Source: a virus. From it: 42,832 nucleotides of DNA. Shown piece after piece: positions 1,255 through 37,793 of this stretch (position 1 is the first letter of the stretch; the number at the start of each line of letters is the position of its first letter). The notes beneath the pieces are model-generated. The model had not been told where the DNA came from. It ran no database searches and saw nothing but the letters and a program-made list of their open reading frames with translations. A program made the position numbers and the translations under genes. Location of the stretch: positions 1 to 42,832 of the IMG/VR virus record IMGVR_UViG_3300021197_000832. One strand, given 5' to 3'.

Positions 1255-1497
1255 TTGTTTACAGTAGAAATGGACACAGACGAAGGTGTGAGCACTACAA
1301 TAACCACACTGGATCACACAGGGACACACCCAGATGTCGAAGTTATTATCTTTGATGGGATGGTAGCTATTCGACAGGTGACAGATATCGAGGCCGACAC
1401 GCTTCTAGATTTGGTAGTGATGTCCCCTGAGCAGTGGGCAGATATCTTAGCCGCAATGAAGATGCCCACAGGGGTTTATAATAGGGAGGTTGTATGA
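1255..1497 (+). CDS. Small protein of unknown function (TTG start)
   Basis: The TTG at 1255 is preceded by AAGGAGAG at 1243-1249, a good ribosome site that starts in the stop codon of the upstream gene. The product is 80 residues: MFTVEMDTDEG, a probable beta-strand part (VEVIIFDGMVAIRQV) and a helical end (SPEQWADILAAM). Its TGA overlaps the RNA polymerase start (ATGA), so polymerase translation may be coupled to it. I do not recognise the family. Confidence 0.65.
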   Translation: MFTVEMDTDEGVSTTITTLDHTGTHPDVEVIIFDGMVAIRQVTDIEADTLLDLVVMSPEQWADILAAMKMPTGVYNREVV

Positions 1498-4028
1498 CAG
1501 ACAAAACAAAGATGGAAAGACAATTAGAACTGGAGATGCGAGCTAATGACTACTCGCATGACCGCCTAATGAAGATCGTACAACGCAGAGCAGCTACAGG
1601 TAATGCGGATGAGTTGTTGGAGGGTCGTATGATCCTTCTACATAGCATCGACAGGCTTGCAGCTAAACTCACCGAATACTTCGACGCTCCTCTACGTGGT
1701 AAGGCGGGGACGGTACGTAATCTCCTAGCTGAGGAGTTTCACAAAAGCCCTAAAGACCTAGCTTACGTGGTTCTTGTGACGGTAGTACGTTATATCTCAC
1801 AGGAAAATATGGTCCCTGTGTCGCATATGGCACGATCGCTGAATAAAAACATCCACGATAGCATCTTAGTCCGCCGTTTGGATAACAAAGAGAAGACACT
1901 CAGTTCTTATGTTGACAGACGCTACAAGAAGCGGGGCGCTAAGTGGTGTAAAAACGAGAAGCTTAAGATTGCTCATCGTCAGAACCAAATGAAGGATAGT
2001 AACCTGACAGCTCTGACAGCATATGTTGGAGGCCTGCTTATTGATATTGTGATTAAAAGTGGTATCAATATTATCGAACTCCGTAATGTCAGACAGGCTG
2101 ATAAGACAACACAGCACATTGTCTACACCGACGAGTGCTACCGAATGGTCCTACAGAGCCGTGAGATACTCTTGGAGGATTATCGTAAATACCCTATCCA
2201 TCTGGTGAAGCCTAAGGACTGGACGAGCTATAAAGGCAGTGGAGGTTATCACACAACCGACATCTACAAGTTGTCTATGATCAAAGCTCGTAACGAGACA
2301 CGGGGTATTCTACAGCGTTATTTTGACCAGAATAACACCGACAACCTCGCCAAAATCCTCAACACACTTCAGGGCACACCTTGGCGTATTAACCAGCGGG
2401 TGTTTGAGGTTATGGACTATATCTTTGATAATAACATCGAGGACCCTAGCTACCCTAGGCACAACCCACGCCTCATCGGGCGTCTTCCTCTTAATGTCAA
2501 CATGGAACCAGAGGACTACATCAACCCTCACAACTACGGAGAGCTGCATAAAGAGGGACCGCATAAAGGGTTACCGATGCACAATAATATGATACGTAAA
2601 CGTCACAAAGATTTAGAAGATCAGCGTGATATCTGCATATCTAACAACGGCAAGGCTCTTATGCAGAATATGATCTTAGCCAACGCAAAGGAGTATTTGA
2701 ACGAAGACGAAATATACTTTAGTTATCAATACGATAGTAGAGGTCGTATCTACCCAATCCAACAACACCTCCAGCCTCAGGGCTCTGGTAACATCAAAGC
2801 TCTGCTGGAGTTCGCTGAGGGCAGTAAGATCACTACCGAAGAACAGCGGCGTTGGTTCCTGATTCATGGTGCTAACACATATGGCTTCGACAAGCTATTG
2901 TATGATGATAGGATAGTTAAAATCTTAGAGCTTGAAAGCGATATCCTAAAGACTGCTGATGATCCCCTAGCTAATCGGGACTTCTGGGGTAGCTCTGACG
3001 ACCCTTATATGTTTCTGGCGTGGTGTTTTGAGTATGCGGATTACAAACGTGATCCTGAGGTGTTTGTCAGTCACATCCCCATTGCTCTAGATGCTACCTG
3101 CAGCGGCATACAGCTCTACTCAGGCCTCTTACGAGATGCTGAGGGGGCTAGCTCAGTAAACGTCATTGGGGACACCAGAGAGGATATTTACCAGAAGGTC
3201 GCTGATCGTGTTAATTCCTACCTAGAGGCAGGTGATTATCAGAAATTCTTCTACTACACTGATAAAGCTGGCGTCGATCATGTGCTAGACACCGTACCGA
3301 TGGCTAACAGCTTCAAAGGTAAGGTCTCCAGAAGTCTTGTGAAACGAAATGTAATGACACAACCCTACTCTGTGACTAAGCGGGGGATGTATGACCAGAT
3401 CGTAGAAGAGCTCATGGAGTTGGAGAACAACAACAAGAAGTTCTGGGTAGGTGACATCTGGGCAGCTGCTAAGTTCCTATCAGACCTAAACGACAAAGCT
3501 ATTCAAGAGATTGTGAAAGGCGCTAGGGTCGGTCAGGAGTACTTGAAGAGGGTCACACAAGACCTTGTAAAGAGAGGAGAACATATTGCCTACAGAACAC
3601 CCCTTACTTACTTCCCCGTAGTCCAGAGAATAGGGACTCGTAAAGAGGAGCGTATCCGAACACCTATCGGGAGGATCACAATCCGAACACCAACCGAGAC
3701 CTTAGACAAACTTAGGATGGGCAACGGTATTGCACCTAACTTCATTCACAGTCTCGATGCTGCTCTACTGGCTACAACAGTTCTAAAGCTAGCTGAAAAA
3801 GGTTGTATTAACTTTCACATGATCCATGATAGTTACGGTGTTCCTATCGGTCACGTAGAAAACCTTAACAAGTTAGTCCGAGAGACTTTTGTAGAGCTTT
3901 TTGAAGCTGACCCACTGCACATCTTTGTGAACACAGTCAATCACACATTCGAACAATCACCAGAGGAGGTAATGATCAATACCCTAAATCTTAACGAAGT
4001 GCTTGAATCTAAATACATTTTCTCATAG
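1494..4028 (+). CDS. T7-like single-subunit DNA-dependent RNA polymerase
   Basis: The 844-residue product matches the single-subunit phage RNA polymerase family (T7 gp1 is 883 residues). Palm motif A is IALDATCSGIQLYSGLLRD, with the catalytic Asp at 533 (T7 D537). The finger motif is SLVKRNVMTQPYS, with Lys617 and Tyr625 at the places of T7 K631 and Y639. NFIHSLDAALLATTV follows, then HMIHDSYG with the second catalytic Asp at 779 (T7 D812). The start overlaps the previous stop by ATGA. It should transcribe the middle and late genes from the three promoters sharing GAAAGCCCCCTATAGA. The Gln for T7 Leu in MTQPYS and differences near the specificity loop fit its promoter, which is unlike that of T7. 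One such promoter lies just after its stop codon. Confidence 0.98.
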   Translation: MTDKTKMERQLELEMRANDYSHDRLMKIVQRRAATGNADELLEGRMILLHSIDRLAAKLTEYFDAPLRGKAGTVRNLLAEEFHKSPKDLAYVVLVTVVRYISQENMVPVSHMARSLNKNIHDSILVRRLDNKEKTLSSYVDRRYKKRGAKWCKNEKLKIAHRQNQMKDSNLTALTAYVGGLLIDIVIKSGINIIELRNVRQADKTTQHIVYTDECYRMVLQSREILLEDYRKYPIHLVKPKDWTSYKGSGGYHTTDIYKLSMIKARNETRGILQRYFDQNNTDNLAKILNTLQGTPWRINQRVFEVMDYIFDNNIEDPSYPRHNPRLIGRLPLNVNMEPEDYINPHNYGELHKEGPHKGLPMHNNMIRKRHKDLEDQRDICISNNGKALMQNMILANAKEYLNEDEIYFSYQYDSRGRIYPIQQHLQPQGSGNIKALLEFAEGSKITTEEQRRWFLIHGANTYGFDKLLYDDRIVKILELESDILKTADDPLANRDFWGSSDDPYMFLAWCFEYADYKRDPEVFVSHIPIALDATCSGIQLYSGLLRDAEGASSVNVIGDTREDIYQKVADRVNSYLEAGDYQKFFYYTDKAGVDHVLDTVPMANSFKGKVSRSLVKRNVMTQPYSVTKRGMYDQIVEELMELENNNKKFWVGDIWAAAKFLSDLNDKAIQEIVKGARVGQEYLKRVTQDLVKRGEHIAYRTPLTYFPVVQRIGTRKEERIRTPIGRITIRTPTETLDKLRMGNGIAPNFIHSLDAALLATTVLKLAEKGCINFHMIHDSYGVPIGHVENLNKLVRETFVELFEADPLHIFVNTVNHTFEQSPEEVMINTLNLNEVLESKYIFS

Positions 4029-4030
4029 TT

Positions 4031-4052
4031 GCGCATGAAAGCCCCCTATAGA
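4031..4052 (+). promoter_or_regulatory. Phage RNA polymerase promoter 1 (middle genes, putative origin)
   Basis: The core GCGCA-T-GAAAGCCCCCTATAGA occurs here directly after the polymerase stop. It occurs again at 36951 with no mismatch in these 22 bases, and at 13527 with one mismatch. By analogy with T7 (TATAG with G as +1), transcription would start at G4051. It faces the replication genes that begin at 4221. Confidence 0.85.
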
Positions 4053-4070
4053 TAGAACCGATTTAAGAAC

Positions 4071-4190
4071 CTCTTTAAGATGCTTAAAGATACTTAAAGA
4101 TGCTTAAAGATGCTTAAAGACTTCTTAGATAATTATTATTATAATAACTATAATAGTAATCTCTTAAAGAAGCTTTAAGATGCTTAAAGA
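4071..4190 (+). repeat. 10-bp repeat array and AT-rich dyad, putative primary replication origin
   Basis: Units of the 10-mer TTAAAGATGC repeat almost perfectly at 4074-4120 (about five copies). An AT-rich block of about 40 bases (4121-4160) follows, then three more copies at 4161-4190. The copies flanking the AT block also form an inverted repeat: CTTAAAG-CTTCTT at 4113-4126 opposes AAGAAG-CTTTAAG at 4165-4177. In T7 the primary origin lies in the same place, just after the polymerase gene, and consists of phage promoters followed by an AT-rich segment. That this is the origin is inference from position and composition. Confidence 0.65.
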
Positions 4191-4220
4191 CCCCAAACTC
4201 AAAGCCTAAAGGAGACACAC

Positions 4221-4850
4221 ATGGCTATTACAAAACCTTTCGCGGTAAAAGGAACTAACGTAACATCACCAAAAGGTAAGGCACTCTGGTGTAAATTCAA
4301 AGAGCCTGACACAAAATTCAATGCTAAGGGTGAGTTCTCTACCGATGTGGTATGTGATCCCAACGACCCCTCGGTCAAAGCTTACATTGAAAAACTAGAG
4401 AACCTCTTGGACATTGCCTACAACGAAACCTGTGAGACACTCGGCGCTGCCCGTGCTCGTGAGGTTCGTAAGAGCTCTGTCTACAAAGAAGAGTATGATG
4501 CTGATGGTAACCCAACTGGTAAAGTCATCTTCAAATACAAACTTAAAGACCTAGCCGATCGCCGTGAACGTGGTGATACAGCTGAGGTTCTCGTAGTAGA
4601 TGCTAAACGGAACCGCCTCGGTAACGAAGCACCTCTCGTAGGTAACGGATCGACTATTCGCGTAGTTAGTTATGCAAACCCATACTTCATGCAGTCCACA
4701 AAGACTGTTGGTATTAGTCACATCTGGTCAAAGATGCAGATCATTGAGCTTGTAGAATACACAGGTGCTGGCTCTGACGACTTCGATGATGAAGATGGTT
4801 TTATTGATGTTGCTGCTGACGAAGTCTCAGACTTTGCAGACGACTTTTAA
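4221..4850 (+). CDS. Single-stranded DNA-binding protein, T7 gp2.5-like
   Basis: This 209-residue protein is the first gene after promoter 1 and has AAAGGAGA as its ribosome site. The body is basic to mixed (ALWCKFKEPDTKFN near the start). The last 28 residues form a very acidic tail rich in Asp that ends FADDF. An acidic tail ending in Phe is the hallmark of T7 gp2.5, where it contacts the DNA polymerase and the helicase. The length is close to gp2.5 (232 residues). It would coat single strands and coordinate the replisome with the primase-helicase and polymerase encoded downstream. Its stop overlaps the RusA-like gene by one base (TAATG). Confidence 0.88.
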   Translation: MAITKPFAVKGTNVTSPKGKALWCKFKEPDTKFNAKGEFSTDVVCDPNDPSVKAYIEKLENLLDIAYNETCETLGAARAREVRKSSVYKEEYDADGNPTGKVIFKYKLKDLADRRERGDTAEVLVVDAKRNRLGNEAPLVGNGSTIRVVSYANPYFMQSTKTVGISHIWSKMQIIELVEYTGAGSDDFDDEDGFIDVAADEVSDFADDF

Positions 4851-5308
4851 TGACTACTAACGCAAAGCACGATAATCCTCTGTCCAGCAATGGGCAGGGG
4901 GTTCCTGCTAAACAGTCCTTTGACGTTCCTATTCGTTTGGAAATTGGTGTGAATAAGAAAAAAACACACTACCTCAACCTTGGCAACTACCGTAATTGGC
5001 AGTTCCAAATTTCAAACCAAATGAAGAAGACTTTTAAAATTAAGATTGCGGAGACTGTCCGCGCTCTTACACCTGTGGCGGGTCCTGTTAGGATTACATA
5101 CTCAATCTTCTATCCGACCCGTAGACTATTCGACGTTGATAACATCGGCTCTGTGGTGTGTAAGTTCACCCTAGACGCTTTGGTTGAATTTGATATCCTA
5201 GAGGATGATAACTATAAGTTCGTCCCTGAGATCAATTTCGAGTTCGGTGGTGTCGATAAAGAGAACCCACGCTGTGTGGTGACAATCGAGGAGATATCTT
5301 ATGAATGA
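4850..5308 (+). CDS. RusA-like Holliday junction resolvase
   Basis: This 152-residue protein carries the RusA signature: a pair of acidic residues in RRLFDVDN (Asp95 and Asp97), then LDALVEFDILEDDN with Asp109 and Asp119/Asp120. RusA enzymes are dimers that cut four-way DNA junctions with these Asp residues and a metal. T7 uses a different enzyme, gp3 endonuclease I, at this place, so RusA probably replaces it. It would debranch replicating DNA and free it for packaging. The N-terminal 25 residues look disordered. The start shares a base with the SSB stop, and the stop overlaps the next start. Confidence 0.85.
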   Translation: MTTNAKHDNPLSSNGQGVPAKQSFDVPIRLEIGVNKKKTHYLNLGNYRNWQFQISNQMKKTFKIKIAETVRALTPVAGPVRITYSIFYPTRRLFDVDNIGSVVCKFTLDALVEFDILEDDNYKFVPEINFEFGGVDKENPRCVVTIEEISYE

Positions 5309-5417
5309 CTTTGGAATGTTTGAATATGAGCTTAAAGAGGCCCGTAGATATGGGATCACTCTAAAAGATTACATGGATTATAAAAAAGATATGGAGGCTC
5401 TCTATGATTTTAAATAA
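5301..5417 (+). CDS. Small protein of unknown function (38 residues)
   Basis: A GAGGAGA ribosome site at 5288-5294 precedes this ATG, which overlaps the end of the RusA-like gene by 8 bases. The product is 38 residues, charged and helical (FEYELKEARRYGITLKDY). Its 3' end overlaps the next small gene by 14 bases. Close packing and good ribosome sites support a real gene. No family is recognised. Confidence 0.6.
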   Translation: MNDFGMFEYELKEARRYGITLKDYMDYKKDMEALYDFK

Positions 5418-5571
5418 AGCACAGCTTATTGCTGCAACACGGTCTGAGCTCATGTACGAAAACGACTGGATGGATTATGCAGAGGCTTCCCAACTAGCCT
5501 ACGAAGAGTGGGAGGACTACGACTACTTGATTGGCGATTTGATTGATGGAGACCTTGAGGATGTACAATGA
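5404..5571 (+). CDS. Small acidic protein of unknown function (55 residues)
   Basis: GGAGG at 5393-5397 lies 6 bases before the ATG. The 55-residue product is acidic (WEDYDYLIGDLIDGDLED) and probably helical. It ends inside the start of the primase-helicase gene, with an 11-base overlap. Nothing in it suggests a known function. It is supported by spacing and ribosome site only. Confidence 0.6.
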   Translation: MILNKAQLIAATRSELMYENDWMDYAEASQLAYEEWEDYDYLIGDLIDGDLEDVQ

Positions 5572-7201
5572 AGACGCTGAAAGTGAATTCCTGTATCACA
5601 GCCAGTGTGATTCTTGTGGTAGCTCTGACGCCAATGCTAATTATTCTAACGGTACTAGCTACTGTTTTGCCTGTAGTACGTGGAATAAAGGAGAAAGTGG
5701 AGACGCTCCAATGCAGTCACACAATAAAAATACAAACATGGACCTACTAACATTCGATTATGTTGAGCTCGCTAAACGAAAGATACCAGAGAGCATCTGC
5801 AAACAGTTTCGCTATGGCGTAGGTCAGGATCGTAACGGCAACAAGGTTCAGGTCGCTAACTATTTCGATAAAGACAAACAGGTTGTCGGTCAGAAGCTTC
5901 GGTATGCTGACAAGAGCTTCAAGTTTATTGGCGATGCTAAAACTTCTACGTTGTTCGGTCAGTCCCTCTGGGGCAACACAGGTAGGAAGCTTGTGATCAC
6001 CGAGGGTGAGATCGACGCTCTGTCCTACGCTACCGCAACAGACGGGAAGTATCCTGTTGTGTCACTAAAGAACGGAGCTTCTTCCGCTAAGAAAGAGATT
6101 GCACAGCATATTGAATGGATCGCAGGATACGACGAGGTCTACATCTGGTTCGATAATGATGACGCAGGACGCCAAGCCGTTAATGACGTTGTCCAGCTCA
6201 TTCCAGTAGACAAGCTGCGGATCGTCCGTCACCCAGACTACAAGGACGCTAACGAGGTCCTACAGTACAAAGGTAAAGCTGGGGTAGTTCAATGCTTCTA
6301 TAACGCAGAGCGCTATAAGCCAGATGATATCGTAACCCCGATGGATATGCTGGACACTGTTGCCGAGCCTATTGAAGTTGGTTTTGCGTATGCCTACGAT
6401 GGTCTCACACAGATGCTATATGGACGCCGCTTCGGTGAGGTAGTAACAGTAGGTGCTGGTGTTAGCGTTGGGAAAACAGACTTTGTTATGACACAGATGG
6501 CTCACGATATTAGTAAGGGCTGGAAAGTAGCAACCTTTATGCTTGAGCAAAGTGTTAAAGAGACGCTTCTACGAACAGCTGGTAAACTTGATGGTCAACA
6601 CTATCACTTGCCGAATATCGAGGTCGATAAGGAGGCCCTGAAAGAGACTGTACGTTCAATGGACGGTAATCTGTTTATGTTTGACAACTTTGGTGCTAAT
6701 ACTTGGGAGGTCATTCGTGAGAAGATCAGATACATGTCTTACAACTACGAATGTCGTATCTTCTATATCGACAACCTAACAGCCCTCAACTCTCATGCGG
6801 CTGACGAGAGGCGTAACCTCGACGCTCTTATGAGTGAGGTTGCTGGACTAGCTAAAGAGCTAGACATCTGGATTATGTTGGTGTCTCACCTAAACCCACC
6901 AAAGACAGGTGCTTCACACGAAGCTGGTGGTAAGACTGAACAGAACCAGTTTACAGGGTCTAGGGCTATCATGCGGTGGAGTTACACAATGCTAGGTATT
7001 GAAAGAAACACACTCCACGAGACCGCTGATGAGAGAAACAAAGGCCTTATCCGAGTTCTTAAAGATCGCTTCTCGGGTAATGCTACAGGACGCACAGTCG
7101 GGTTCTACTACGATCGTGATACAGGTCTTGTACATGAGACTGAGACTGACTTTGAGATCGAAGTAACTGAAGGAGACAATAATGACGGTTGCGATTTTTG
7201 A
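5561..7201 (+). CDS. Primase-helicase, T7 gp4-like
   Basis: The 546-residue product has the full T7 gp4 layout. A zinc-binding primase domain carries CDSC and CFAC (Cys16, 19, 35, 38). A TOPRIM domain follows, with ITEGEIDALS near 147-155 and FDNDDAG at 197-203. The RecA-like helicase has Walker A GAGVSVGKT at 298-306, then MLEQS, Walker B IFYIDN and SHLN. I chose the ATG at 5561 because GGAG at 5548 is correctly spaced; upstream TTG and ATG codons lack a ribosome site. Met51 (ATG 5711) has its own GGAGA 7 bases upstream and would give a product without the zinc domain, like T7 gp4B. It unwinds DNA and makes primers for the polymerase that follows, whose gene overlaps it by 20 bases. Confidence 0.97.
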   Translation: MYNEDAESEFLYHSQCDSCGSSDANANYSNGTSYCFACSTWNKGESGDAPMQSHNKNTNMDLLTFDYVELAKRKIPESICKQFRYGVGQDRNGNKVQVANYFDKDKQVVGQKLRYADKSFKFIGDAKTSTLFGQSLWGNTGRKLVITEGEIDALSYATATDGKYPVVSLKNGASSAKKEIAQHIEWIAGYDEVYIWFDNDDAGRQAVNDVVQLIPVDKLRIVRHPDYKDANEVLQYKGKAGVVQCFYNAERYKPDDIVTPMDMLDTVAEPIEVGFAYAYDGLTQMLYGRRFGEVVTVGAGVSVGKTDFVMTQMAHDISKGWKVATFMLEQSVKETLLRTAGKLDGQHYHLPNIEVDKEALKETVRSMDGNLFMFDNFGANTWEVIREKIRYMSYNYECRIFYIDNLTALNSHAADERRNLDALMSEVAGLAKELDIWIMLVSHLNPPKTGASHEAGGKTEQNQFTGSRAIMRWSYTMLGIERNTLHETADERNKGLIRVLKDRFSGNATGRTVGFYYDRDTGLVHETETDFEIEVTEGDNNDGCDF

Positions 7202-9032
7202 CATTGAGTCAAACGGTCTCTATGAGGAGGCCACAAAGCTTCATTGCGTATCTATCAAGGTAGACGATGAAGAGACAAAGGTTTACACAAACCACCCTAT
7301 TGAGGGTAGTGATGGTAGTCTTGAGGAGGGCCTTGAGATACTCAATAGTGTGGACCTTGTGGTAGGCCATAATATCATCAACTTTGACCTTCCAACTATG
7401 GAGAAGCTGGGGTATCAAATCACAAGCCCTTGCCACGATACTCTAATAATGAGCCGCTTGGCATATCCAAACATCAGCTTTCAAGACTCTAACCGTAAGA
7501 CTATCCCACCTAAGATGAAAGGCTCACACAGTCTCAAGGCTTGGGGTTACCGACTACGGAAACTCAAAGGAGACTTTGGCGGCGACATTGAGCAATGGGA
7601 AGTGCTCACACCAGAGATGGTTACTTACTGCCGACAAGACAGCGAAGTCACTTACGCTTTGTATCAGAAGCTTTTGGGACGTAATATCCCCGATGATGCT
7701 ATCTGGCTCGAACAAGAGTTTGCTAAGATCATCAGTCGCCAAGAGAAATATGGTGTCTACTTTGATATCAAGTCGGCGGAACAGCTACACATCGACCTCA
7801 TTCACGAAGTTGATAAAGCAGAGGCTGAGTTGTTTAAGACCTTCACACCTCTCCAGACATGGACCCCTAAGCCTTACCCAAAAACTGCCTACAAGCAGAA
7901 CGGGGAAAAGTCACAGGTTCTAATCAATCAGGAGAAGCTAGGTTGCCACCTCAACAAACAAGGTGAGTGGGGGTACTTCAAGGAAGTTCACTTCAACCCT
8001 TCAAGCAGGCAGCACATTGCTCGGTGGCTCTCTGAGGTCTACGGGTGGAAACCCAAGGATCACACAGAGAAGGGGACCCCTATAATCAATGAGAAGGTCC
8101 TAGAGCGTCTCGATTTTCCAGAAGGTAAGGTCTTAGCCCACTACTTCAACGTAGTGAAACTTAAAGGCCAGCTCGCAGATGGTAAGAACGCTTGGATGAA
8201 GATGGTTGGCGGTGACAGCCGCATACATGGCCGTGTGAACACACTAGGAGCTGTTAGCCGTAGATGCACCCACAGCAATCCAAACATGGCTCAGGTCCCC
8301 TCAGGGCGGGCCTACAAGGGTCATGAGGCACGACAGTTATTCACCGTACCAAAGGGCAAGAAGCTTGTTGGGTGTGATGCTGATGGCCTAGAGCTCAGAA
8401 CACTCAGTCACTATATGGCTAGGTTTGACAATGGGCAATATGCTAGGGCTGTTGACGAAGGTAACAAAGAAAATGGCACTGACATTCACACACTAAACCA
8501 GACAGGCGCTGGTCTCCCGACAAGGGACGATGCTAAGACTTTCATCTACGCATTTCTATATGGAGCGGGGGATGCAAAGATCGGCAGCATTATCAACGGG
8601 ACAGCTGAGGCTGGTAGAAAGCTAAAAGAGAAATTCTTTAGACAGATACCAGCAATCAAAAGATTGGTTGATGCGGTCAGTGAGGCTTACAAACAGAACG
8701 GCACACTACGCGCCCTTGACGGTAACCCTTACCACATCCGATCAGCACACTCAGCACTCAACACCCTACTGCAGGGGGCAGGGGCATTGGTCATGAAGTA
8801 CTACTTGGTGTTTCTGGATCGTAACCTCGCCGCTAAATACACAGTAGGTGAACAATACGAGTTCGTATTAAATGTCCACGACGAAGTCCAGATCGAATGC
8901 GATGCTAATATAGCTGAAGAGGTGGCGCGGATTGCCGAAGACACTTTTGGTGATGTAACCCACCATCTAAACTTTCGTATCCCATTAAGAGGCTCTGCCG
9001 ATATTGGCAACTCTTGGGCAGATACACACTAA
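7182..9032 (+). CDS. Family A DNA polymerase, T7 gp5-like
   Basis: The 616-residue protein has an N-terminal proofreading exonuclease (FDIESNGL with Asp7 and Glu9, VGHNIINFD with Asp69, YCRQDSEVTY with Asp153). The family A polymerase motifs follow. Motif A is GCDADGLELRTLSHYMA with Asp399. The O helix is RDDAKTFIYAFLYGAG with Arg448, Lys452 and Tyr456, equivalent to T7 Tyr526. Motif C is VHDEVQIE with Asp567 and Glu568. It is shorter than T7 gp5 (704 residues), mostly in the thumb and exonuclease linker, so binding to host thioredoxin cannot be assumed. GGAGACAAT before the ATG is the ribosome site; the start overlaps the helicase gene. Confidence 0.98.
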   Translation: MTVAIFDIESNGLYEEATKLHCVSIKVDDEETKVYTNHPIEGSDGSLEEGLEILNSVDLVVGHNIINFDLPTMEKLGYQITSPCHDTLIMSRLAYPNISFQDSNRKTIPPKMKGSHSLKAWGYRLRKLKGDFGGDIEQWEVLTPEMVTYCRQDSEVTYALYQKLLGRNIPDDAIWLEQEFAKIISRQEKYGVYFDIKSAEQLHIDLIHEVDKAEAELFKTFTPLQTWTPKPYPKTAYKQNGEKSQVLINQEKLGCHLNKQGEWGYFKEVHFNPSSRQHIARWLSEVYGWKPKDHTEKGTPIINEKVLERLDFPEGKVLAHYFNVVKLKGQLADGKNAWMKMVGGDSRIHGRVNTLGAVSRRCTHSNPNMAQVPSGRAYKGHEARQLFTVPKGKKLVGCDADGLELRTLSHYMARFDNGQYARAVDEGNKENGTDIHTLNQTGAGLPTRDDAKTFIYAFLYGAGDAKIGSIINGTAEAGRKLKEKFFRQIPAIKRLVDAVSEAYKQNGTLRALDGNPYHIRSAHSALNTLLQGAGALVMKYYLVFLDRNLAAKYTVGEQYEFVLNVHDEVQIECDANIAEEVARIAEDTFGDVTHHLNFRIPLRGSADIGNSWADTH

Positions 9033-9271: not shown

Positions 9272-9579
9272 CCTTTGACGAATACCAAGCCCAAGCAGTT
9301 ACAACTGCAATTTACAAATCAGAACACCAACTCACCTACCCCGCTATGGGGTTGGCTAATGAAGCTGGAGAAGTTCTGGGAAAAGTTAAGAAGATTATGC
9401 GGGACGGAGTTTATGATCGTAACGCGATAGCTAAAGAAGTCGGAGACGTACTGTGGTACGCAGCGGCTCTATGCAGAGATTTGAACGTAAGTATGAGCGA
9501 TGTTGCTCAAATGAATTTAGATAAACTACGGAGCCGCCAAGAGCGCGGAACCCTTCAAGGAAATGGCGACGAGCGATGA
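9268..9579 (+). CDS. MazG-like nucleotide pyrophosphohydrolase
   Basis: This 103-residue protein fits the all-helical MazG/NTP pyrophosphohydrolase fold. It has LANEAGEVLGKVKK (ExxE-type metal site), then KEVGDVLWYAAALCRDL (ExxD). Family enzymes hydrolyse nucleoside triphosphates to monophosphates and pyrophosphate, and in phage have been proposed to alter ppGpp or clean nucleotide pools. The length suits a single-domain phage MazG. Both ends overlap neighbours (ATGA with DUF3310, ATGA with NrdJ), so it is translated with them. The exact substrate cannot be read from sequence. Confidence 0.87.
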   Translation: MTFDEYQAQAVTTAIYKSEHQLTYPAMGLANEAGEVLGKVKKIMRDGVYDRNAIAKEVGDVLWYAAALCRDLNVSMSDVAQMNLDKLRSRQERGTLQGNGDER

Positions 9580-11474
9580 ACAACTACCTTCCCACAGACT
9601 ATCAATCCTTTATCCACAAGTCCCGTTATGCCAAGTATGTTGAAGGCAAAGGACGCGAGAGTTGGTCAGAGACCATCCAGCGTTTCTCACACAACATCAT
9701 CGGTGACAAGGTAGACGAAAAGACCAAGAACGAACTTGAGCGGGCAATCCTTGGGCTAGACGTAATGCCCTCTATGCGTGGTCTAATGACAGCAGGCCCT
9801 GCAGCTGAGCGTGACAACACATGTATGTACAACTGCAGCTACCTGCCTGTTGACGACATCAAGTCTTTTGACGAAGCTATGTTTATCCTTCTGTGTGGTA
9901 CAGGTGTGGGCTTCTCTGTAGAACGTCAGTTCATCAGCAAGCTCCCAGAGGTCCCTGATCAGCTGTTCCCGAGCGATACAAACATCGTCGTAAAGGACAG
10001 CAAGGAAGGCTGGGCTAAGGCTCTACGGCAGCTTGTGGCTCTCCTGTACAGCGGTGAGGTCCCCACATGGGACGTCTCTAAGGTTCGTCCTGCAGGCGCA
10101 CCACTGAAGACCTTTGGTGGTCGAGCGTCAGGCCCAGCGCCTCTGGTTGACCTCTTCAACTTCACGATCGCTGCCTTTAAGGGCGCACAGGGCCGTAAGC
10201 TTTCCTCTCTGGAATGCCACGACATCATGTGTAAGATCGGTGAGGTTGTTGTAGTTGGTGGTGTTCGTCGGTCAGCTATGATCAGCCTCTCGAACCTGAG
10301 TGACGATCGTATGCGTCACGCTAAGTCTGGTCAGTGGTGGGAGAACAACCCACAGCGTGGCCTAGCGAACAACTCTGTAAGCTACACAGAGAAGCCAGAC
10401 GCTATGTCGTTTATGCGAGAGTGGATGGCACTGGCTGAGAGCGGCTCAGGTGAACGTGGCGTGTTTAACCGTCAAGCATCTAAGGTGCAGGCAGCTAAGA
10501 ATGGTCGTCGTGATCCAAACTATGAGTTCGGGACCAACCCGTGCAGTGAGATCATCCTGCGTCCATACCAGTTCTGTAACCTTACGGAGTGCGTGGTACG
10601 TGCCACAGACACAATCGAAGACCTTGAGCATAAAGTTCGTCTTGCAACTATCTTGGGAACCATTCAGGCCACATACACCAAGTTCCCTTATCTGCGTAAG
10701 ATTTGGCAGCGTAACACAGAAGAGGAGCGTTTGCTTGGCGTAAGCCTTACGGGCATCATGGACAACCCACTGATGACCACAAAGAACAAGGCACTCGACA
10801 AGACACTCAAGCACCTCAAGTCTGTAGCAGTTGCGACAAACGCTGAGTGGGCCAAGAAGCTTGGTATCCCTGTAGCCGCAGCGATTACTTGTGTGAAACC
10901 ATCTGGCACAGTCAGCCAGCTTGTAGATAGTGCTAGCGGCATCCATGCTCGTCACAGCCCTTACTACATCCGCACAGTTCGTGGTGACAACAAGGACCCC
11001 ATGACGCAGTTCATGATTGACCAAGGTATCCCTAACGAGCCTGAAGCGTTCAAGCCCGACCAGACCACAGTGTTCAGCTTCCCTATGAAAGCACCAGAGA
11101 AAGCTGTGTGTACAGCGGACCTGACTGCGATTGAGCAGCTAGAGATGTGGTTGGCCTATCAGCGTGCGTGGTGTGAGCATAAGCCTAGCGTTACGATCAA
11201 CGTGAAAGCGGACGAGTGGTTTGAAGTTGGTGCGTTTGTGTACAAGCATTTCGACGAGATGTCAGGCGTGTCCTTCTTGCCGTACAACGAACACACGTAT
11301 CAGCAAGCGCCTTACCAAGAGATTGGCAAGAGCGATTACAAGACACTACTATCAGTCATGCCAAAAGTGATTGATTGGGAGAAGCTCTCAGAGTACGAGA
11401 GCGAAGACAACACAGCAGGAAGTCAGACACTAGCGTGTTCTGGTGACAGCTGTGAGATTGTTGACCTGACGTAA
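9576..11474 (+). CDS. nrdJ: Adenosylcobalamin-dependent (class II) ribonucleotide reductase, monomeric type
   Basis: The 632-residue protein resembles the monomeric B12-dependent reductase of Lactobacillus. FGTNPCSEIILRPYQFCN carries Cys323, Glu325 and Cys334, the same spacing as Cys408, Glu410 and Cys419 in that enzyme. The C-terminus has a redox pair Cys621/Cys626 five residues apart (CSGDSC), as in the family. Cys83 or Cys87 near the N-terminus would be the other active-site disulfide partner. It reduces ribonucleotides to deoxyribonucleotides without oxygen or a second subunit and needs host cobalamin. It follows MazG-like with an ATGA overlap. I saw no intein or intron. Long antisense frames inside it are codon-use shadows. 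Confidence 0.95.
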   Translation: MNNYLPTDYQSFIHKSRYAKYVEGKGRESWSETIQRFSHNIIGDKVDEKTKNELERAILGLDVMPSMRGLMTAGPAAERDNTCMYNCSYLPVDDIKSFDEAMFILLCGTGVGFSVERQFISKLPEVPDQLFPSDTNIVVKDSKEGWAKALRQLVALLYSGEVPTWDVSKVRPAGAPLKTFGGRASGPAPLVDLFNFTIAAFKGAQGRKLSSLECHDIMCKIGEVVVVGGVRRSAMISLSNLSDDRMRHAKSGQWWENNPQRGLANNSVSYTEKPDAMSFMREWMALAESGSGERGVFNRQASKVQAAKNGRRDPNYEFGTNPCSEIILRPYQFCNLTECVVRATDTIEDLEHKVRLATILGTIQATYTKFPYLRKIWQRNTEEERLLGVSLTGIMDNPLMTTKNKALDKTLKHLKSVAVATNAEWAKKLGIPVAAAITCVKPSGTVSQLVDSASGIHARHSPYYIRTVRGDNKDPMTQFMIDQGIPNEPEAFKPDQTTVFSFPMKAPEKAVCTADLTAIEQLEMWLAYQRAWCEHKPSVTINVKADEWFEVGAFVYKHFDEMSGVSFLPYNEHTYQQAPYQEIGKSDYKTLLSVMPKVIDWEKLSEYESEDNTAGSQTLACSGDSCEIVDLT

Positions 11475-12353: not shown

Positions 12354-12779
12354 ATGAGTATTCTCAAAGCCTACCGAGCTAATTTCGTGCCACGTAATGC
12401 CGATGAAATCGTAGCCTCGTTCCAACATGCTCTTGATGACGCACTTGATCAAGGGGCCCTCACCCGAGATGCTGTGGTATCTCTCGTCGCATTCTATGCG
12501 GAGTTCGGGGTTAACTATCTCCGCACCGTAGCCTATACCCTACGTGACCCTCATGGAGCACAGGAGAGTATGAAGTTTATGAACAGTGTGATTGCGGAAG
12601 CAGTCCACGAAGCAGGCCTCCACTACTACAACAAGGAACATGGTTACTCAATCATTGATAAGACTGTACAAGAGGCTCTCGATAACGAGGGTGTTGCAAC
12701 AGTTTCAATCATTAACCAAATCATTGATGAAATTGAAGAGACCTATATCGAAGATGAAGAAGTAGAAGTGGAACACTAA
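12354..12779 (+). CDS. Helical protein of unknown function between two exonuclease genes
   Basis: The 141-residue product is predicted from composition to be mainly helical, with a very acidic end (IEETYIEDEEVEVEH). AAGGAGACAAAC precedes its ATG. It contains no Cys and no nucleotide or metal motif that I see. The next gene, a 5'-3' exonuclease, starts one base after its stop, so the two may be co-translated and could work together. I do not recognise the family. The acidic tail could also mimic DNA or contact a replication protein, which is inference only. Confidence 0.8.
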   Translation: MSILKAYRANFVPRNADEIVASFQHALDDALDQGALTRDAVVSLVAFYAEFGVNYLRTVAYTLRDPHGAQESMKFMNSVIAEAVHEAGLHYYNKEHGYSIIDKTVQEALDNEGVATVSIINQIIDEIEETYIEDEEVEVEH

Positions 12780-13547
12780 ATGATTGCCCTCGTAGACGCA
12801 GACAGCCTCTTATACAAAGTTGGTTTCGCTATCGAGGACAAGGTGGTTTGGAATGAACAGGAAGTTGCTCTGGGGACCGAAGAGCCAGAAGTCGAATATT
12901 ACACAGACATGGCCGTCTGTAAGGAGACTTTTGATAGGTTCGTAGGTAACATCCTGTTCGCCACTGATTGCGAAGAAGCATTCCTTGTATTCTCAGGAGG
13001 TGGTAACTTTCGTGATGCTATACCATCATCATACAAAGAGAACCGCACAGGCTCTCGTAAGCCTTTAGGGTATCCAGAACTACGTGAGTATGCAGAGACA
13101 GCTTACAAAACTCACACACCCAGAGGAATGGAAGCCGACGACTTCGTTGTCTACCTTAAAACTCAAAACCCCGAGGACTATATCCTATGTGCTATTGATA
13201 AGGATGTTCTGTATCAGACTGTAGGTACACATTATAATTATGGTCGGGATGAGGAAGTCACAGTTAACGACTTCGAGGCTATTTGGTATGCTTACTTTCA
13301 GGTCCTCACAGGGGACACCTCAGATGGTTACAAAGGAGCTAAGAACGTAGGCCCTGTGAAAGCTAAAAGGATACTTGCAGATTGTGAGACCGAACAAGAG
13401 CTCTGGCAGGCTGTTGTGACCGCATATGAAGACCGTGGTCAATCTGAAGAAGAAGCCCTACATACTATGCAGCTAGCAAATATGCACCAATATGATGGAA
13501 ATAAAATTACGTTGTGGACCCCTCCCGCGCAAGAAAGCCCCCTATAG
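12780..13547 (+). CDS. 5'-3' exonuclease / flap endonuclease, T7 gp6-like
   Basis: The 255-residue protein has the PIN-like flap nuclease pattern: LVDADSLLY (Asp6, Asp8), SSYKENRTGSRK, GMEADDFVVY (Glu118, Asp120, Asp121), CAIDKDVLY (Asp140, Asp142) and LTGDTSDG (Asp179, Asp182). A helix-three-turn-helix, KNVGPVKAKRIL, follows. T7 gp6 degrades host DNA, removes primers and helps packaging; this gene sits at the same place, last of the replication block. Its start immediately follows the previous stop (TAAATG) without a clear ribosome site. Its last codons contain phage promoter 2, so the C-terminus (PPAQESPL) is encoded by promoter bases. Confidence 0.93.
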   Translation: MIALVDADSLLYKVGFAIEDKVVWNEQEVALGTEEPEVEYYTDMAVCKETFDRFVGNILFATDCEEAFLVFSGGGNFRDAIPSSYKENRTGSRKPLGYPELREYAETAYKTHTPRGMEADDFVVYLKTQNPEDYILCAIDKDVLYQTVGTHYNYGRDEEVTVNDFEAIWYAYFQVLTGDTSDGYKGAKNVGPVKAKRILADCETEQELWQAVVTAYEDRGQSEEEALHTMQLANMHQYDGNKITLWTPPAQESPL

Positions 13548-13548
13548 A
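13527..13548 (+). promoter_or_regulatory. Phage RNA polymerase promoter 2 (virion genes)
   Basis: The core GCGCA-A-GAAAGCCCCCTATAGA differs from promoters 1 and 3 only at the sixth base. It overlaps the last codons and stop of the exonuclease gene (TAG at 13545-13547). Transcription should start at G13547, some 15 bases before the 13562 gene, and run into the portal, capsid and tail genes. The position corresponds to the T7 promoters ahead of gene 6.5 and gene 9. Confidence 0.85.
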
Positions 13549-13561
13549 AGGAAACGAAATA

Positions 13562-13735
13562 ATGTTACCCAAGATATCTAAGGACTCTTTGACAGCTACC
13601 ATTAACACTTTAGAGGATCGTTTCCCAGATAAACTTCCTCATAAAGCTGTAACGATGGAGCACATGTACATGCTACTGGGTCAACAGTCGGTTATCCGAT
13701 ACCTTAAAGAGATATTAGAGGTCAGTTATGAGTAA
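13562..13735 (+). CDS. Small protein of unknown function, first late gene
   Basis: The 57-residue product (MLPKISKDSLTATINTLEDRFPDK and on) is charged and likely helical. AAGGAAACG precedes its ATG; longer forms would start inside the exonuclease gene. It is the first gene after promoter 2 and overlaps the acetyltransferase-like gene by 8 bases. Small helical proteins of this kind occupy the place of T7 gp6.5/6.7, but I see no sequence evidence of homology. Confidence 0.7.
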   Translation: MLPKISKDSLTATINTLEDRFPDKLPHKAVTMEHMYMLLGQQSVIRYLKEILEVSYE

Positions 13736-14189
13736 AATTACTATTGAACTTTACGATAGTAAATACGCATCTGACTTAGAAGAAATGCTCGTAGACTTCT
13801 CTAGGGAGGTCTACGGGGCAGGTACTGCCGATTTAGATAAATTTATAGATGGACATTGGTTTATCTACTTGGCGATGAGAGGCGATGAGGTAATAGGCTT
13901 CTCTAGTTACATCTACAATAACTACTTTGGGCTGCGGCCCCCTACACTAGGCAACTCTTATCTGTATGTGAAGCCTCCTTATAGGAAGGGCAGAGCAGCT
14001 TACCTGCTCACAAAGCAGACTGGCTATGTTAGTGTGGATACTAACTTACCTCTTGAATTATATTACGCTTCCAACGAATCAAGGCTCATTGGAGAACGTA
14101 CCTTAGGACTTGAGGGTTCTGAGGTATACAGCGTCCACGAATATTCCCTTGAACACACCAAACAAAGTTACAAATTCTATAAGAAATAA
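13728..14189 (+). CDS. GNAT-like N-acetyltransferase (putative)
   Basis: The 153-residue protein has a plausible GNAT fold: a strand with GDEVIGFSSYIY, then NSYLYVKPPYRKGRAAYLLTKQ. In the latter YRKGRA stands where the acetyl-CoA pyrophosphate loop (Q/RxxGxG/A) is expected. The C-terminal part, with EYSLEHTKQSYKFYKK, is basic. Acetyltransferase-like genes just before the portal gene occur in T7-like phages of marine bacteria. The target is unknown; modification of a host protein or a virion protein is possible. The second Gly of the loop is replaced by Ala, so activity is uncertain. Confidence 0.65.
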   Translation: MSKITIELYDSKYASDLEEMLVDFSREVYGAGTADLDKFIDGHWFIYLAMRGDEVIGFSSYIYNNYFGLRPPTLGNSYLYVKPPYRKGRAAYLLTKQTGYVSVDTNLPLELYYASNESRLIGERTLGLEGSEVYSVHEYSLEHTKQSYKFYKK

Positions 14190-14199
14190 GGATAAACCA

Positions 14200-14487
14200 A
14201 TGAGCTACAAATTCTACAACCCCTTCATGCCTGATTTGGCAATGCGTCCCGATGGGATGGTATTTGGAGGTAAAGGCGGCGGTGTCGTTGAGAAACCAGT
14301 TTACGTCCCACCTCCCCAAGCCCCTCAACTGGATGCGGCTGCTACACAAGAAGACGCTATCACACCTGAAGAGGAAGCAATGCGTCAGAGAGAAGCCACA
14401 AAGAAAGGCGCTAAGTCTCTCCAGATTCCAGTAAGCGGGAACGGAGGCGGTGCTACAGGTACAGTCGGTACGGGCTCTGGCAGTTAA
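14200..14487 (+). CDS. T7 gp7.3-like small virion/tail assembly protein
   Basis: The ATG at 14200 follows AAGGATAAACC and gives 95 residues. The order is a short aromatic start (SYKFYNPFMP), a Gly-rich patch (GGKGGG), a Pro-rich linker (PVYVPPPQAPQ), an acidic helix with a basic KKGAKSL motif and a Gly/Ser/Thr-rich end. T7 gp7.3 has the same size, the same position directly before the portal gene and a similar KKSL then Gly-rich ending. gp7.3 is a virion protein needed for infectivity. Similarity here is low-complexity, so the call rests on position plus pattern. Confidence 0.6.
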   Translation: MSYKFYNPFMPDLAMRPDGMVFGGKGGGVVEKPVYVPPPQAPQLDAAATQEDAITPEEEAMRQREATKKGAKSLQIPVSGNGGGATGTVGTGSGS

Positions 14488-14502
14488 TAAAGGATATTAT
14501 CA

Positions 14503-16065
14503 ATGGCAACTACTAAACAGTACAATCCAGAAGAATTGATTGAGTTGCTATCGAGTTCCAAAGAGAAGTTTAGTAAACTAGATACAGGACGCTCCTCAGT
14601 ACTTGACCGTGCTCGGGAGTGTTCGAATCTGACTATTCCTTCTGTAATCACAGAAGATGGTCACACAGAATCAGATGATCTGCCTACACCGTATCAGGCC
14701 GTAGGTTCCCGTCTGGTTCACAACCTAGCTAATAAACTTCTTATGGCCCTCCTGCCGCCTAATACTTCCTTCTTCCGCCTACTGCCTCAGCCTGAGGTGG
14801 TGGCATTTGCCAAAGAAAATGATGCAAATGAGGATTTGGAGAAGAACCTTGTCACAATCGAGAATGAAATCCAACGTCAGATCGAGCGTGAAGCACTGCG
14901 AGTACCTACCTTTGAAGCGATTAAGTCGTTAATCATCGGCGGCAACGCATTGCTGTATAAGACTGAAGGTGGTGTGAAGAGTTACAAAATGTCTGACTAT
15001 GTTGTCAGTCGTGACTTCTCAGGTAACCCGATAGAAATAATTACAAAGGAAGCAGTCTCCAAAGAGGCACTTCCAGATGACGTCCGTGACCAAGTCATGA
15101 GCGACCCAGACCTGCGTGAATCAGAGAAGGTTACGATCTTTAGCCGTGCTATTCTTAAGGAAGGTGTTTGGTACACTTTCCAAGAGGTAGAAGGGTTCCT
15201 TGTTGAGGGCTCGGAAGAAACATTTAAGAAAGATGGAAACTTCCCTTACATCCCTCTCCGCTGGACATCAATCAATGGTGAAAGCTATGGCCGTGGTCTG
15301 GTAGAGCAATACCTAGGCGACTTCCGTAGTCTCGAAGCTTTGTACCAACTACTGCTAGAAGCGTCCTCGGTGATGAGCCGTGTACTCTTCGGTAAACGAG
15401 CAGGTGCAGTCCTCGATATCGACGACATCAACAATGCTGAAAATGGTGTTTGTATCCTCGGAGACCTCGAGAACGACATCACAACTCTACGAGTAGACAA
15501 AGGTTCGGACCTTACTGTTCCTATGAACATGGTTCAAGACCTCACACGCCGCCTAGAAGCAGCGTTCCTCGTGGCTTCTTCAGCTGCTCGTGACTCTGAG
15601 CGTACCACAGCTACTGAAATCCGTTTCATGGCCGCAGACCTCGAACAGTCACTAGGTGGTGTTTACTCACTACTCGCACTTGAGCTACAACGTCCACTTG
15701 CTAGCCTGTTGTTGAAACAGTCTAAAGCTCCCCTTGATCAATTAGGGGTTGATGTTGTTGTAGTCACAGGTGTTGAAGCATTGGGTCGTACAGCCGAGCT
15801 CGATCGCCTACGTCAATTTAACTCACTCCTACATGAGACAGGCGCTGCAGAACAAATCATGCAACGTATGAACATTGGTGTGTACATCGAGAAACTGGCT
15901 AATGCCCTCTCTATGGACGCTACTGGGTTGATTAAGACTGATGAGCAGCTTCAAGCTGAAGCTCAAGCACAACAACAACAAATGCAACAACAGCAACAGA
16001 TGCAGATGCAACAGGAAGGCGCTAAAGCCCTCGCTGGCGCTGCACAAGCACAACTTTCAAAATAG
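14503..16065 (+). CDS. Portal (head-tail connector) protein, T7 gp8-like
   Basis: The 520-residue product is close to T7 gp8 in length (536) and lies at the same place, before scaffold and capsid. It has portal-like features: SSVLDRARECSNLTIPS and PYQAVGSRLVHNLANKL near the N-terminus, a wing or stem part with RWTSINGESYGRGLVEQYLGD, and an Ala- and Gln-rich C-terminus of about 35 residues (AQAQQQQMQQQQQ) that may form the crown. Twelve copies would make the DNA channel at one capsid vertex, docking terminase and then the tail tube. AAGGATATTATCA precedes the ATG. Confidence 0.95.
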   Translation: MATTKQYNPEELIELLSSSKEKFSKLDTGRSSVLDRARECSNLTIPSVITEDGHTESDDLPTPYQAVGSRLVHNLANKLLMALLPPNTSFFRLLPQPEVVAFAKENDANEDLEKNLVTIENEIQRQIEREALRVPTFEAIKSLIIGGNALLYKTEGGVKSYKMSDYVVSRDFSGNPIEIITKEAVSKEALPDDVRDQVMSDPDLRESEKVTIFSRAILKEGVWYTFQEVEGFLVEGSEETFKKDGNFPYIPLRWTSINGESYGRGLVEQYLGDFRSLEALYQLLLEASSVMSRVLFGKRAGAVLDIDDINNAENGVCILGDLENDITTLRVDKGSDLTVPMNMVQDLTRRLEAAFLVASSAARDSERTTATEIRFMAADLEQSLGGVYSLLALELQRPLASLLLKQSKAPLDQLGVDVVVVTGVEALGRTAELDRLRQFNSLLHETGAAEQIMQRMNIGVYIEKLANALSMDATGLIKTDEQLQAEAQAQQQQMQQQQQMQMQQEGAKALAGAAQAQLSK

Positions 16066-16081
16066 CTAAAGGAGACACCAT

Positions 16082-16270
16082 ATGGCTAAATCACATCATG
16101 AGATCAAGCAGAATGCTTTGAAATCGAAAAACTCTAATACGATCACAGACAGCGATTACATCCTTCGGGATATCGGGACAGCTGAAGATACCGCTAAGAA
16201 TATTATTGATATCACACCCGAAGCTTTTAAGACAAAGGCTCCAGTAAAAGCTTCTAAAGCGGAGGGCTAA
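16082..16270 (+). CDS. Small protein of unknown function between portal and scaffold
   Basis: This 62-residue protein is hydrophilic and basic at both ends (MAKSHHEIKQNALKSKN; KTKAPVKASKAEG). AAAGGAGACACC precedes its ATG, and the scaffold gene starts right after its stop. T7 has no gene here, but short genes at this position are found in related marine phages. It may be a minor head protein. No motif supports a precise function. Confidence 0.7.
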   Translation: MAKSHHEIKQNALKSKNSNTITDSDYILRDIGTAEDTAKNIIDITPEAFKTKAPVKASKAEG

Positions 16271-16271
16271 T

Positions 16272-17108
16272 ATGTCTGAGCATGATCAAGTAGCTGAAAC
16301 AGTCACTGAGGCCCCTACGGGGGTCTCGGAGGCCCCTCAGAACACACCTGAGGAACAAGCAGCTATCGAGCGTTATCGTAAATCCCAAATGTCAGCTGAA
16401 GAAAAAGAAGCTGGTGTACCTGAGGGTTACAACGAAGACGGTACAAAGCAGGAAGAGCTCATAGCTGGTAAGTTCAAGTCCCAAGAGGACTTGCTCAAAG
16501 CTTATGAAGAACTCCAGAAAAAAATGGGACAACCACAGGAAACACCTGAGGAAGCCCCTAAAGCTGAAGAGAAGATTATTGAGGAAGCAGATGCTGACAC
16601 AACTACCTCATTTTCAGCAGAGAAATACGAGCAGGAAGTTGCCTCTGAAGGCGGTCTTTCTGATAAGTCATATGCCGAGTTGGAATCTAAAGGCTTCACA
16701 CGCACACAGGTTGATTCTTACATTCAGGGACAGCAAGCATACGCTGCCTCAGTTCGTAATAACGTCTACGACTCTGTAGGTGGTGAGGAAGCATACACAA
16801 ACCTAATCCAATGGGCATCACAGAACATGGACCCATCAGCCATCAAAGAATATAATGATGCTGTGGACTCTATGGACCAGCCACGTATGTTGCGTTCGCT
16901 GGAATACATGAACCTAAAACATGGACAAAATGCCCCACGCGAAGCGAGACGTCTAGAGGGTGATAGCCCTGCTGGAGGCCTCCAGCCATACGCTAATAAA
17001 AACGAATGGCAGCGTGACAGCACAAGTCGCCTCTATGGCAAGGACGCTAAGTTTACCAAAATGGTTGATCAACGCTACTTGGCTTCCCGCCGTAAAGGTA
17101 TCTTGTAA
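16272..17108 (+). CDS. Capsid assembly scaffolding protein, T7 gp9-like
   Basis: The 278-residue product is strongly acidic and Glu/Pro/Ala-rich in its first half (TPEEAPKAEEKIIEEAD), helical in the middle and basic at its end (RYLASRRKGIL). Acidic helical body plus basic C-terminus, with position between portal and capsid, fits the scaffold of T7-like phages. It would nucleate the prohead and leave before DNA packaging, with the basic end binding the capsid protein. A hairpin-forming segment (GAGGCCCC and GGGGGTCTC) lies in the first 70 bases of the gene. Length is near that of T7 gp9 (307). Confidence 0.9.
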   Translation: MSEHDQVAETVTEAPTGVSEAPQNTPEEQAAIERYRKSQMSAEEKEAGVPEGYNEDGTKQEELIAGKFKSQEDLLKAYEELQKKMGQPQETPEEAPKAEEKIIEEADADTTTSFSAEKYEQEVASEGGLSDKSYAELESKGFTRTQVDSYIQGQQAYAASVRNNVYDSVGGEEAYTNLIQWASQNMDPSAIKEYNDAVDSMDQPRMLRSLEYMNLKHGQNAPREARRLEGDSPAGGLQPYANKNEWQRDSTSRLYGKDAKFTKMVDQRYLASRRKGIL

Positions 17109-25936: not shown

Positions 25937-26428
25937 ATGAAACAACTACTTTTAACTGCGTCCTTCGTTTGTGTAGGCTCTGTAGCCTTTGCAGACATCA
26001 CAGGACCAGCAATGTCTCAGACGCTCAACGTGACCACTCTGGCTACGTCTTGTTCGTTTGCTGGCCCGTTGACAGGCTCTATGCCCTATGACGAGCCCAA
26101 TGCTCAGTTTACGTCTGTAGGCGGTACAGCCGCTACTATGGACATCACCTATCGTGAACTGACCACACTGAATATCGTCAACGATGGTGTCTTTGATAGT
26201 AAAGCAGGTGCAATCACTGAGATTGACTACACAGGCTCTACATTCGATGGCACTGCCTTTGTCAATGGAGCCGCTGGTTCCTTGGCAGCTTCAGCAACAC
26301 TAACACCTGCTGGTACATTGGTTATTGGGACATTGTCTCTATTACCTACCAGTATTGATGTTGCTCTGTCTCAGATTGACGACTATGGCGCTTACCCGAC
26401 ATCCTTCACAGTTACCTGTGTTGAGTGA
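25937..26428 (+). CDS. Exported beta-rich protein, pilin-like
   Basis: The 163-residue protein has a signal peptide, MKQLLLTASFVCVGSVAFA, with cleavage expected before DITGP. The mature part is beta-rich, Thr/Ser/Gly-rich and nearly free of charge. It has one Cys near each end (Cys39 in TSCSF and Cys161 in FTVTCVE). A single N-to-C disulfide in a small exported beta protein is typical of chaperone-usher pilins and spore-coat-U-type subunits. I have no sequence match to prove it. The next gene, overlapping by one base, may encode a PapD-like partner. No T7 counterpart is known to me. Confidence 0.7.
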   Translation: MKQLLLTASFVCVGSVAFADITGPAMSQTLNVTTLATSCSFAGPLTGSMPYDEPNAQFTSVGGTAATMDITYRELTTLNIVNDGVFDSKAGAITEIDYTGSTFDGTAFVNGAAGSLAASATLTPAGTLVIGTLSLLPTSIDVALSQIDDYGAYPTSFTVTCVE

Positions 26429-36897: not shown

Positions 36898-36950
36898 AGG
36901 CTATAAATTGGCTAAAATTCGGCTGTAATTTGACCTATAAAAACTTGGTT

Positions 36951-36972
36951 GCGCATGAAAGCCCCCTATAGA
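36951..36972 (+). promoter_or_regulatory. Phage RNA polymerase promoter 3 (right-end promoter)
   Basis: The 22-base core is identical to promoter 1, and GGGGAAAC follows +1 (G36971), close to the GGAAAC after promoter 2. It lies 54 bases after the terminase stop and points into about 0.87 kb without genes. T7 has a promoter (phi-OR) at the same place near its right end, linked to replication and packaging. Confidence 0.85.
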
Positions 36973-37113
36973 GGGGAAACTCAGAGCTACCTAGTATATA
37001 GACTAAAGAAAAGAGAGAGTCTTAAGGCTTCTTTATGATGCTGGGGAAAGCACTCCGTAGGGGGCAGCACTCAGCGTCATAAACTTACCTTAATGTTCCT
37101 AGGTTGCTAGGGT

Positions 37114-37150
37114 AATTATCATTACAATTATCACAATAACAATTATCACA
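37114..37150 (+). repeat. Three copies of AATTATCA
   Basis: AATTATCA occurs at 37114-37121, 37126-37133 and 37141-37148, the last two extended to AATTATCACA. Spacing is 12 and 15 bases in an AT-rich stretch of about 40 bases. They could be binding sites for a phage or host DNA-bending protein near a secondary origin or packaging site. Confidence 0.6.
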
Positions 37151-37510: not shown

Positions 37511-37533
37511 TTAGTTACAGCTGCAACTATCTC

Positions 37534-37735: not shown

Positions 37736-37793
37736 CTAACTCACTGAAAACAAACGATAACCAAAATAAATCCAAATAAATTCACTTTTCTAC

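Follow-up and report, generated by a model that had tools for sequence, protein, structure and literature searches.

A helically phased CTTWAAG heptamer array at the putative T7-type primary origin of an uncultured phage

The gap between the RNA polymerase (RNAP) gene and the single-stranded-DNA-binding protein (SSB) gene of a T7-like phage contains eight copies of the heptamer CTTWAAG, which lie in a single 10-bp register on both sides of an AT-rich block. The phage is represented by IMG/VR virus record IMGVR_UViG_3300021197_000832, and the window analyzed here is the whole stretch of 42,832 bp. On balance, we favor the interpretation that this region is the primary origin of a T7-like phage, which is primed by transcription and uses the phased heptamers as sites for a dimeric protein. 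The array is an expanded form of an element that is widespread in the T7 group; it is not unique and does not constitute a new system. The positions of the array and of the surrounding features are listed in Table 1.

Table 1 Features of the window that bear on the putative origin.
Feature	Position	Strand	Evidence or remark
T7-type single-subunit RNA polymerase gene	1494..4028	+	Pfam RNA_pol PF00940, E 9.1e-88
Putative phage promoter TTGCGCATGAAAGCCCCCTATAGA	4029..4052	+	Identical 24-mer at 36949-36972, imperfect copy at 13527-13557
Left array, five CTTWAAG heptamers in a 10-bp register	4073..4119	.	Starts at 4073, 4083, 4093, 4103, 4113; direct reading, TRF
AT-rich block with internal dyad	4120..4162	.	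Stability and folding computations
Right array, three CTTWAAG heptamers in the 10-bp register of the left array	4163..4189	.	Starts at 4163, 4173, 4183
gp2.5-like single-stranded-DNA-binding protein, first gene after the array	4221..4850	+	Pfam SBB_T7 PF21265, E 2.7e-9
T7-type primase-helicase	5543..7201	+	Pfam Helic-prim_T7_N, DnaB_C, Toprim
Family A DNA polymerase	7182..9032	+	Pfam DNA_pol_A, E 2.3e-42
Second putative promoter copy, imperfect	13527..13557	+	End of 5'-exonuclease gene, phi6.5-like position
Third putative promoter copy, exact 24-mer	36949..36972	+	Behind terminase, phiOR-like position

The motif CTTWAAG occurs 17 times in the window, and eight of these copies form the array at 4073-4189. 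The register spans the AT-rich block, as the last copy on its left and the first on its right are 50 bp apart. TRF returned a 10-bp unit with 4.8 + 2.8 copies. A search with the 18-mer CTTAAAGATGCTTAAAGA allowing up to 3 mismatches gave 7 matches in the window, all within the array, while 0.04 were expected. In 60 second-order Markov genomes, no stretch of 120 bp had more than one heptamer in a 10-bp register, compared with the eight observed. The phased array is not due to chance, and a scan of the whole window found no second phased CTTWAAG chain. The layout described by a sequence-only reading of this DNA, with a promoter after the polymerase gene followed by about five repeats, an AT-rich block and three more repeats, is confirmed by these coordinates. 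Its 10-bp period is exact, but what is conserved is a palindromic heptamer, CTTWAAG (CTTAAAG or CTTTAAG), and not the 10-mer TTAAAGATGC that had been taken as the repeat. Since CTTWAAG is its own reverse complement except for the center base, a symmetric dimer could be bound by each copy. This near-self-complementarity also explains why the array contains direct as well as inverted repeats.

The least stable 44-bp, 60-bp, and 120-bp segments of the genome start at 4125, 4121, and 4047, respectively, and all are located at the array or the AT-rich block. The left 50-bp array also ranks in the top 0.4% of curvature as predicted with wedge parameters. Such properties would be expected if the region had no specific binder and the phased TTAA-type steps were a structural signal, aiding the RNA-primed opening of the AT-rich block by curvature or easy unwinding. 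However, the predicted curvature over 100 bp at the array is unexceptional, and the element that is kept is a specific palindrome with C/G ends, which ranks above palindromes richer in AT, for example TTTWAAA. We consider a purely structural signal unlikely.

The strand at the array folds with a z-score of -4.7, and the inner heptamer copies pair across the AT-rich block, in agreement with the earlier proposal that the copies beside this block form an inverted repeat. The array and dyad might therefore act as RNA, either as an RNase III-type hairpin or as a 5' stabilizer of the SSB messenger, as the leader folds far better than shuffled sequences and RNase III stem-loops are annotated after several promoters of T3. 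Comparison with the related phages described below speaks against such a role. The consensus structure across 11 relatives contained 0 pairs, and neighboring copies share the center base in 17 cases and alternate in 10, while perfect stems need the opposite. The inner dyad of the AT-rich block has only weak support among the relatives (Fisher p 0.018). Moreover, three loci (L028, L195, and L206) have six or seven copies behind the terminase promoter with no gene directly following, and this is hard to reconcile with a role in translation or as leader RNA alone. A leader-RNA element is thus very improbable in our judgment.

T7 is the textbook model of replication and is taught as needing only the phage RNA polymerase and an AT-rich block. 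Its origin activity is reported at phi1.1 and phiOR, and perhaps at phi6.5. In the window, the putative promoter starts at 4029, immediately after the end of the RNAP gene at 4028, and an easily melted AT-rich block lies behind it. T7-type replication proteins (SSB, primase-helicase, family A polymerase, and RNAP) are encoded in the same genome. The remaining T7-type genes identified with Pfam are a T7-type terminase and weak matches to a RusA-like endonuclease and a 5'-exonuclease. No Rep- or O-like initiator was recognized among the 20 window proteins scanned with Pfam. Third-position GC skew showed no clear switch at the array and likewise none in T7, and is uninformative as an origin marker. 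The two other promoter copies of this phage differ from the first in their surroundings: no array is present at 13527-13557, and no phased chain was found behind 36949-36972, where only degenerate heptamer-like words occur (about 37021 and 37032). The exact promoter 24-mer had no match in IMG/VR, and megablast of window positions 3001-6000 against named phages gave no match. The window also carries metabolic and lysis cargo (328-1038, 9576-11474, 41831-42052, 42049-42744, and 41017-41388), the products being PhoH, ribonucleotide reductase (a weak match with a B12-type insertion domain), glutaredoxin, a ThyX-type thymidylate synthase, and an early-region cell-wall hydrolase.

In the mechanism that we propose, the phage RNA polymerase would start at 4029-4052 and transcribe rightward through the AT-rich block. 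The transcript could prime DNA synthesis there, and transcription would separate the strands for the primase-helicase. On either side of the block, the CTTWAAG heptamers would be bound by a dimeric protein positioned on one helix face, and this protein may bend or wrap the region and mark it as the origin. Origin activity, protein binding, the choice of candidate protein, and the bending or wrapping are all what we infer from the arrangement of the site. We consider it most likely that the candidate protein is part of the phage replication module or cooperates with it. The primary origin of T7 style that had been suggested at this place appears well supported by the position, the promoter, the AT-rich block, and homologous arrangements including the T3 origin. 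Support for the suggested binding on one helix face is indirect; the 10/11-bp spacing, the palindromic unit, and the loss of the array together with the replication module (see below) are consistent with a putative bound protein.

An RNAP search of IMG/VR yielded 22 loci, of which 14 were close, and 78 loci were obtained with a wider profile search. In most relatives with an RNAP about 51-82% identical, the RNAP-SSB gap has a promoter-like sequence, heptamers, usually an AT-rich block, and heptamers again. The bases between the heptamers have changed in these relatives, while the heptamers are kept. Neighboring strict heptamers are spaced by 10 bp (21 cases), 11 bp (6 cases) or 12 bp (1 case), and never by 9 bp. 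The array is present without the AT-rich block in L050 and L052, indicating that it can persist without this block. Three loci (L041, L006, and L045) have loose or 9-bp repeats only.

Promoter-like sequences are found at three positions in the relatives, namely the RNAP-SSB gap, after the exonuclease, and after the terminase, and correspond by position to phi1.1, phi6.5, and phiOR of T7. The heptamer arrays occur in the RNAP-SSB gap, after the terminase, and in some relatives also after the exonuclease. In 12 genomes or large contigs, every phased chain scoring at least 2 was located either in the terminal non-coding region or after one of three genes (RNAP, exonuclease, and terminase), and a control word (the motif read backwards) formed no phased chain in the same set. 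The arrays behind some exonuclease promoters count against the origin interpretation, as the array may belong to promoters generally. A protein-bound or polymerase-slowing array could regulate transcription from the phage promoters or insulate units without any role in replication. The arrays indeed come directly after phage promoters, and in this clade such promoters are also found where the early, middle, and late units end. On the other hand, many promoters have no array (two of the three in the window and most T7 promoters), and the arrays concentrate at origin-type sites. L051, which keeps its RNAP and promoters, has lost the arrays. A transcription element of this kind is therefore a minority possibility in our view.

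The loss in L051 and L004 links the array, which we interpret as part of an origin, to replication. Both keep RNAP (58%), TerL (77%), and the promoters at both sites, but their primase (31%) and polymerase (25%) are foreign, no SSB match was found, and the arrays are absent at both promoters. In L051, the swapped module (12576-16465) places a foreign primase-helicase and DNA polymerase directly behind the conserved RNAP and promoter. The concurrent loss of the arrays separates them from transcription and packaging and ties them to the replication module, although the two cases represent one evolutionary event. L043 retains a close replication module (primase 72%) and has no array in the gap, the whole gap being lost, so the element can be lost or moved. 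Loss of the array in relatives that replicate normally had been named beforehand as an outcome that would refute an origin; loss was found in only a few lineages, L051/L004 with the module swapped and L043, and most relatives keep the array.

The choice of the motif was examined by ranking all 128 palindromic heptamers. CTTWAAG was first in the clade with 27 pairs, the next having 2. It was independently first behind the annotated promoters of T7, T3, and ICP3, with 9 pairs at 10/11 bp and the next having 2; a confounder in T7 is that some of the words sit in ribosome-binding leaders. IMG/VR was also scanned for three phased copies without assuming a T7-like context, and the control word was run alongside. 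The two forms of the motif returned 84 and 82 stretches, and the control word returned 23. T7-like core genes were present within short flanks at 45 of 88 triple-repeat loci, and at 26 of 88 the array lay no more than 700 bp downstream of RNAP, TerL or Exo, compared with 0 of 23 for the control word. The 88 loci are not all independent, because several share a contig. The matches include FE44 (Berlinvirus) and KP32 and KpV767 (Przondovirus).

Shorter forms of the array are present in named phages. The annotated primary origin of T3 (rep_origin 5682-5758) begins exactly with CTTTAAGacaCTTTAGG and contains three strict heptamers, compared with 0.06 expected. The sole phased chain in the T7 genome is CTTAAAGagaCTTAAAA, directly behind phiOL, and CTTAAGG, CTTTAAG, and CTTAAGT follow in close succession behind phi1.1B. 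The best chain of ICP3 is directly behind the promoter downstream of the terminase. FE44, KP32, and KpV767 have 3-4 CTTWAAG copies at the phi1.1 position. The copy number at T7 phiOL and in ICP3, FE44, and KP32 is two to four. The sequence-only reading, which knew of no regular array at the primary-origin position of T7, is corrected by these short phased versions in T7, T3, ICP3, FE44, and KP32. Together with the T7-type anatomy of the site, they indicate a variant and not a new system. Like the window, the primary origins of T7 (phi1.1A/B) and T3 (phi1.05) lie behind the RNAP gene and have a promoter followed by AT-rich DNA with CTTWAAG words, and the T3 origin has a phased pair at its start. 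The window differs in having eight exact heptamers in one register flanking the AT-rich block, in place of a few loose copies, and in its gap leading straight to the SSB gene. Erwinia phage FE44 and Klebsiella phages KP32 and KpV767 (Studiervirinae) similarly have a promoter behind RNAP followed by copies mostly 10-11 bp apart, but the copies are fewer and no AT-rich block separates half-arrays. Their arrays carry no repeat or origin annotation in the record stretches covered. In open-access papers, we found nothing relevant on a heptamer or iterons at T7 origins, and the CTTWAAG array is apparently an undescribed element of T7-type origins.

T7 also has terminal CCTAAAG arrays, which we take to be SRL/SRR, and their heptamer differs from that of the window by one base. 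A packaging or terminal signal related to these arrays next to the terminal repeats would be in keeping with the C(C/T)TAAAG arrays at the T7 left end and with several relatives that have arrays near their genome ends. However, the T7 terminal copies are mostly 13 bp or longer apart (13 bp or multiples for the C(C/T)TAAAG heptamers at 175-332), not 10 bp, and lie by the terminal repeat instead of the primary origin. The RNAP-SSB gap, an internal site, is the most regular position of the arrays; on the circular map, the array of the window is separated by about 9 kb from the terminal non-coding region and is not adjacent to the terminal repeats. L051 keeps its terminase (77%) and loses the arrays. 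A packaging signal is extremely unlikely.

Several observations concern the genome ends. About 1.3 kb between the terminase and the early genes (36899-38230) has no clear long gene and contains short hairpins and repeats; the record thus appears to have been opened within the early region, and 36899-38230 probably holds the ends of the genome. Behind the terminase, at 37290-37370, there is a conserved AAAAAATACTAAAAAAATCTGA-GGGGTATCAT-type stretch with a C-run some 20-30 bp later. The stretch is also present in L028 (about 3085), L160, G001, G007, and G014, and partly in a T7-close phage, and with the C-run it is perhaps a terminal-repeat or packaging signal. The terminal regions of G014 (13300-14250) and G016 (26200-27090) are crowded with CTCAAAG/CTTAAAG-like words, several of them spaced by 10-11 bp, and these words are denser there than in the rest of the two genomes.

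Iteron origins of plasmids and some phages resemble the window in having short direct repeats in helical phase beside an AT-rich stretch. Their iterons are 18-22 bp long, in contrast to the palindromic heptamer every 10-11 bp, and no Rep-type initiator was recognized among the 20 window proteins scanned; a promoter and the phage RNAP are part of the site. The term iterons used in the sequence-only reading is apt for helically phased direct repeats by AT-rich DNA, but the strict Rep-bound sense is not established. Two further candidates were rejected. CtrA sites (TTAA-N7-TTAA) have an 11-bp spacing, while the window has N6 between adjacent CTTAAAG copies and the relatives mix 10 and 11 bp. A primase site, formed by a heptamer and ACCC (GGGTC on the other strand), was discarded because most copies lack ACCC and GGGTC in the AT cluster of the T7 origin is reported to be unused for priming (PMC12839067).

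The phased palindrome recurs at origin-type promoters of enterobacterial as well as environmental T7-like phages and is lost when the replication module is swapped, which makes it a candidate signal for origin choice. To our knowledge, no sequence signal explains which of the 17 annotated promoters of T7 act as origins. We tentatively suggest that T7-type phages may have a phage- or host-encoded origin-binding factor that reads phased CTTWAAG and selects the origin promoters, with T7 carrying a minimal version and this clade the full array. Such a factor, if it exists, would add an initiator-like step to T7 replication. The CTTWAAG array could also serve as a sequence marker for T7-type origins in uncultured phages.
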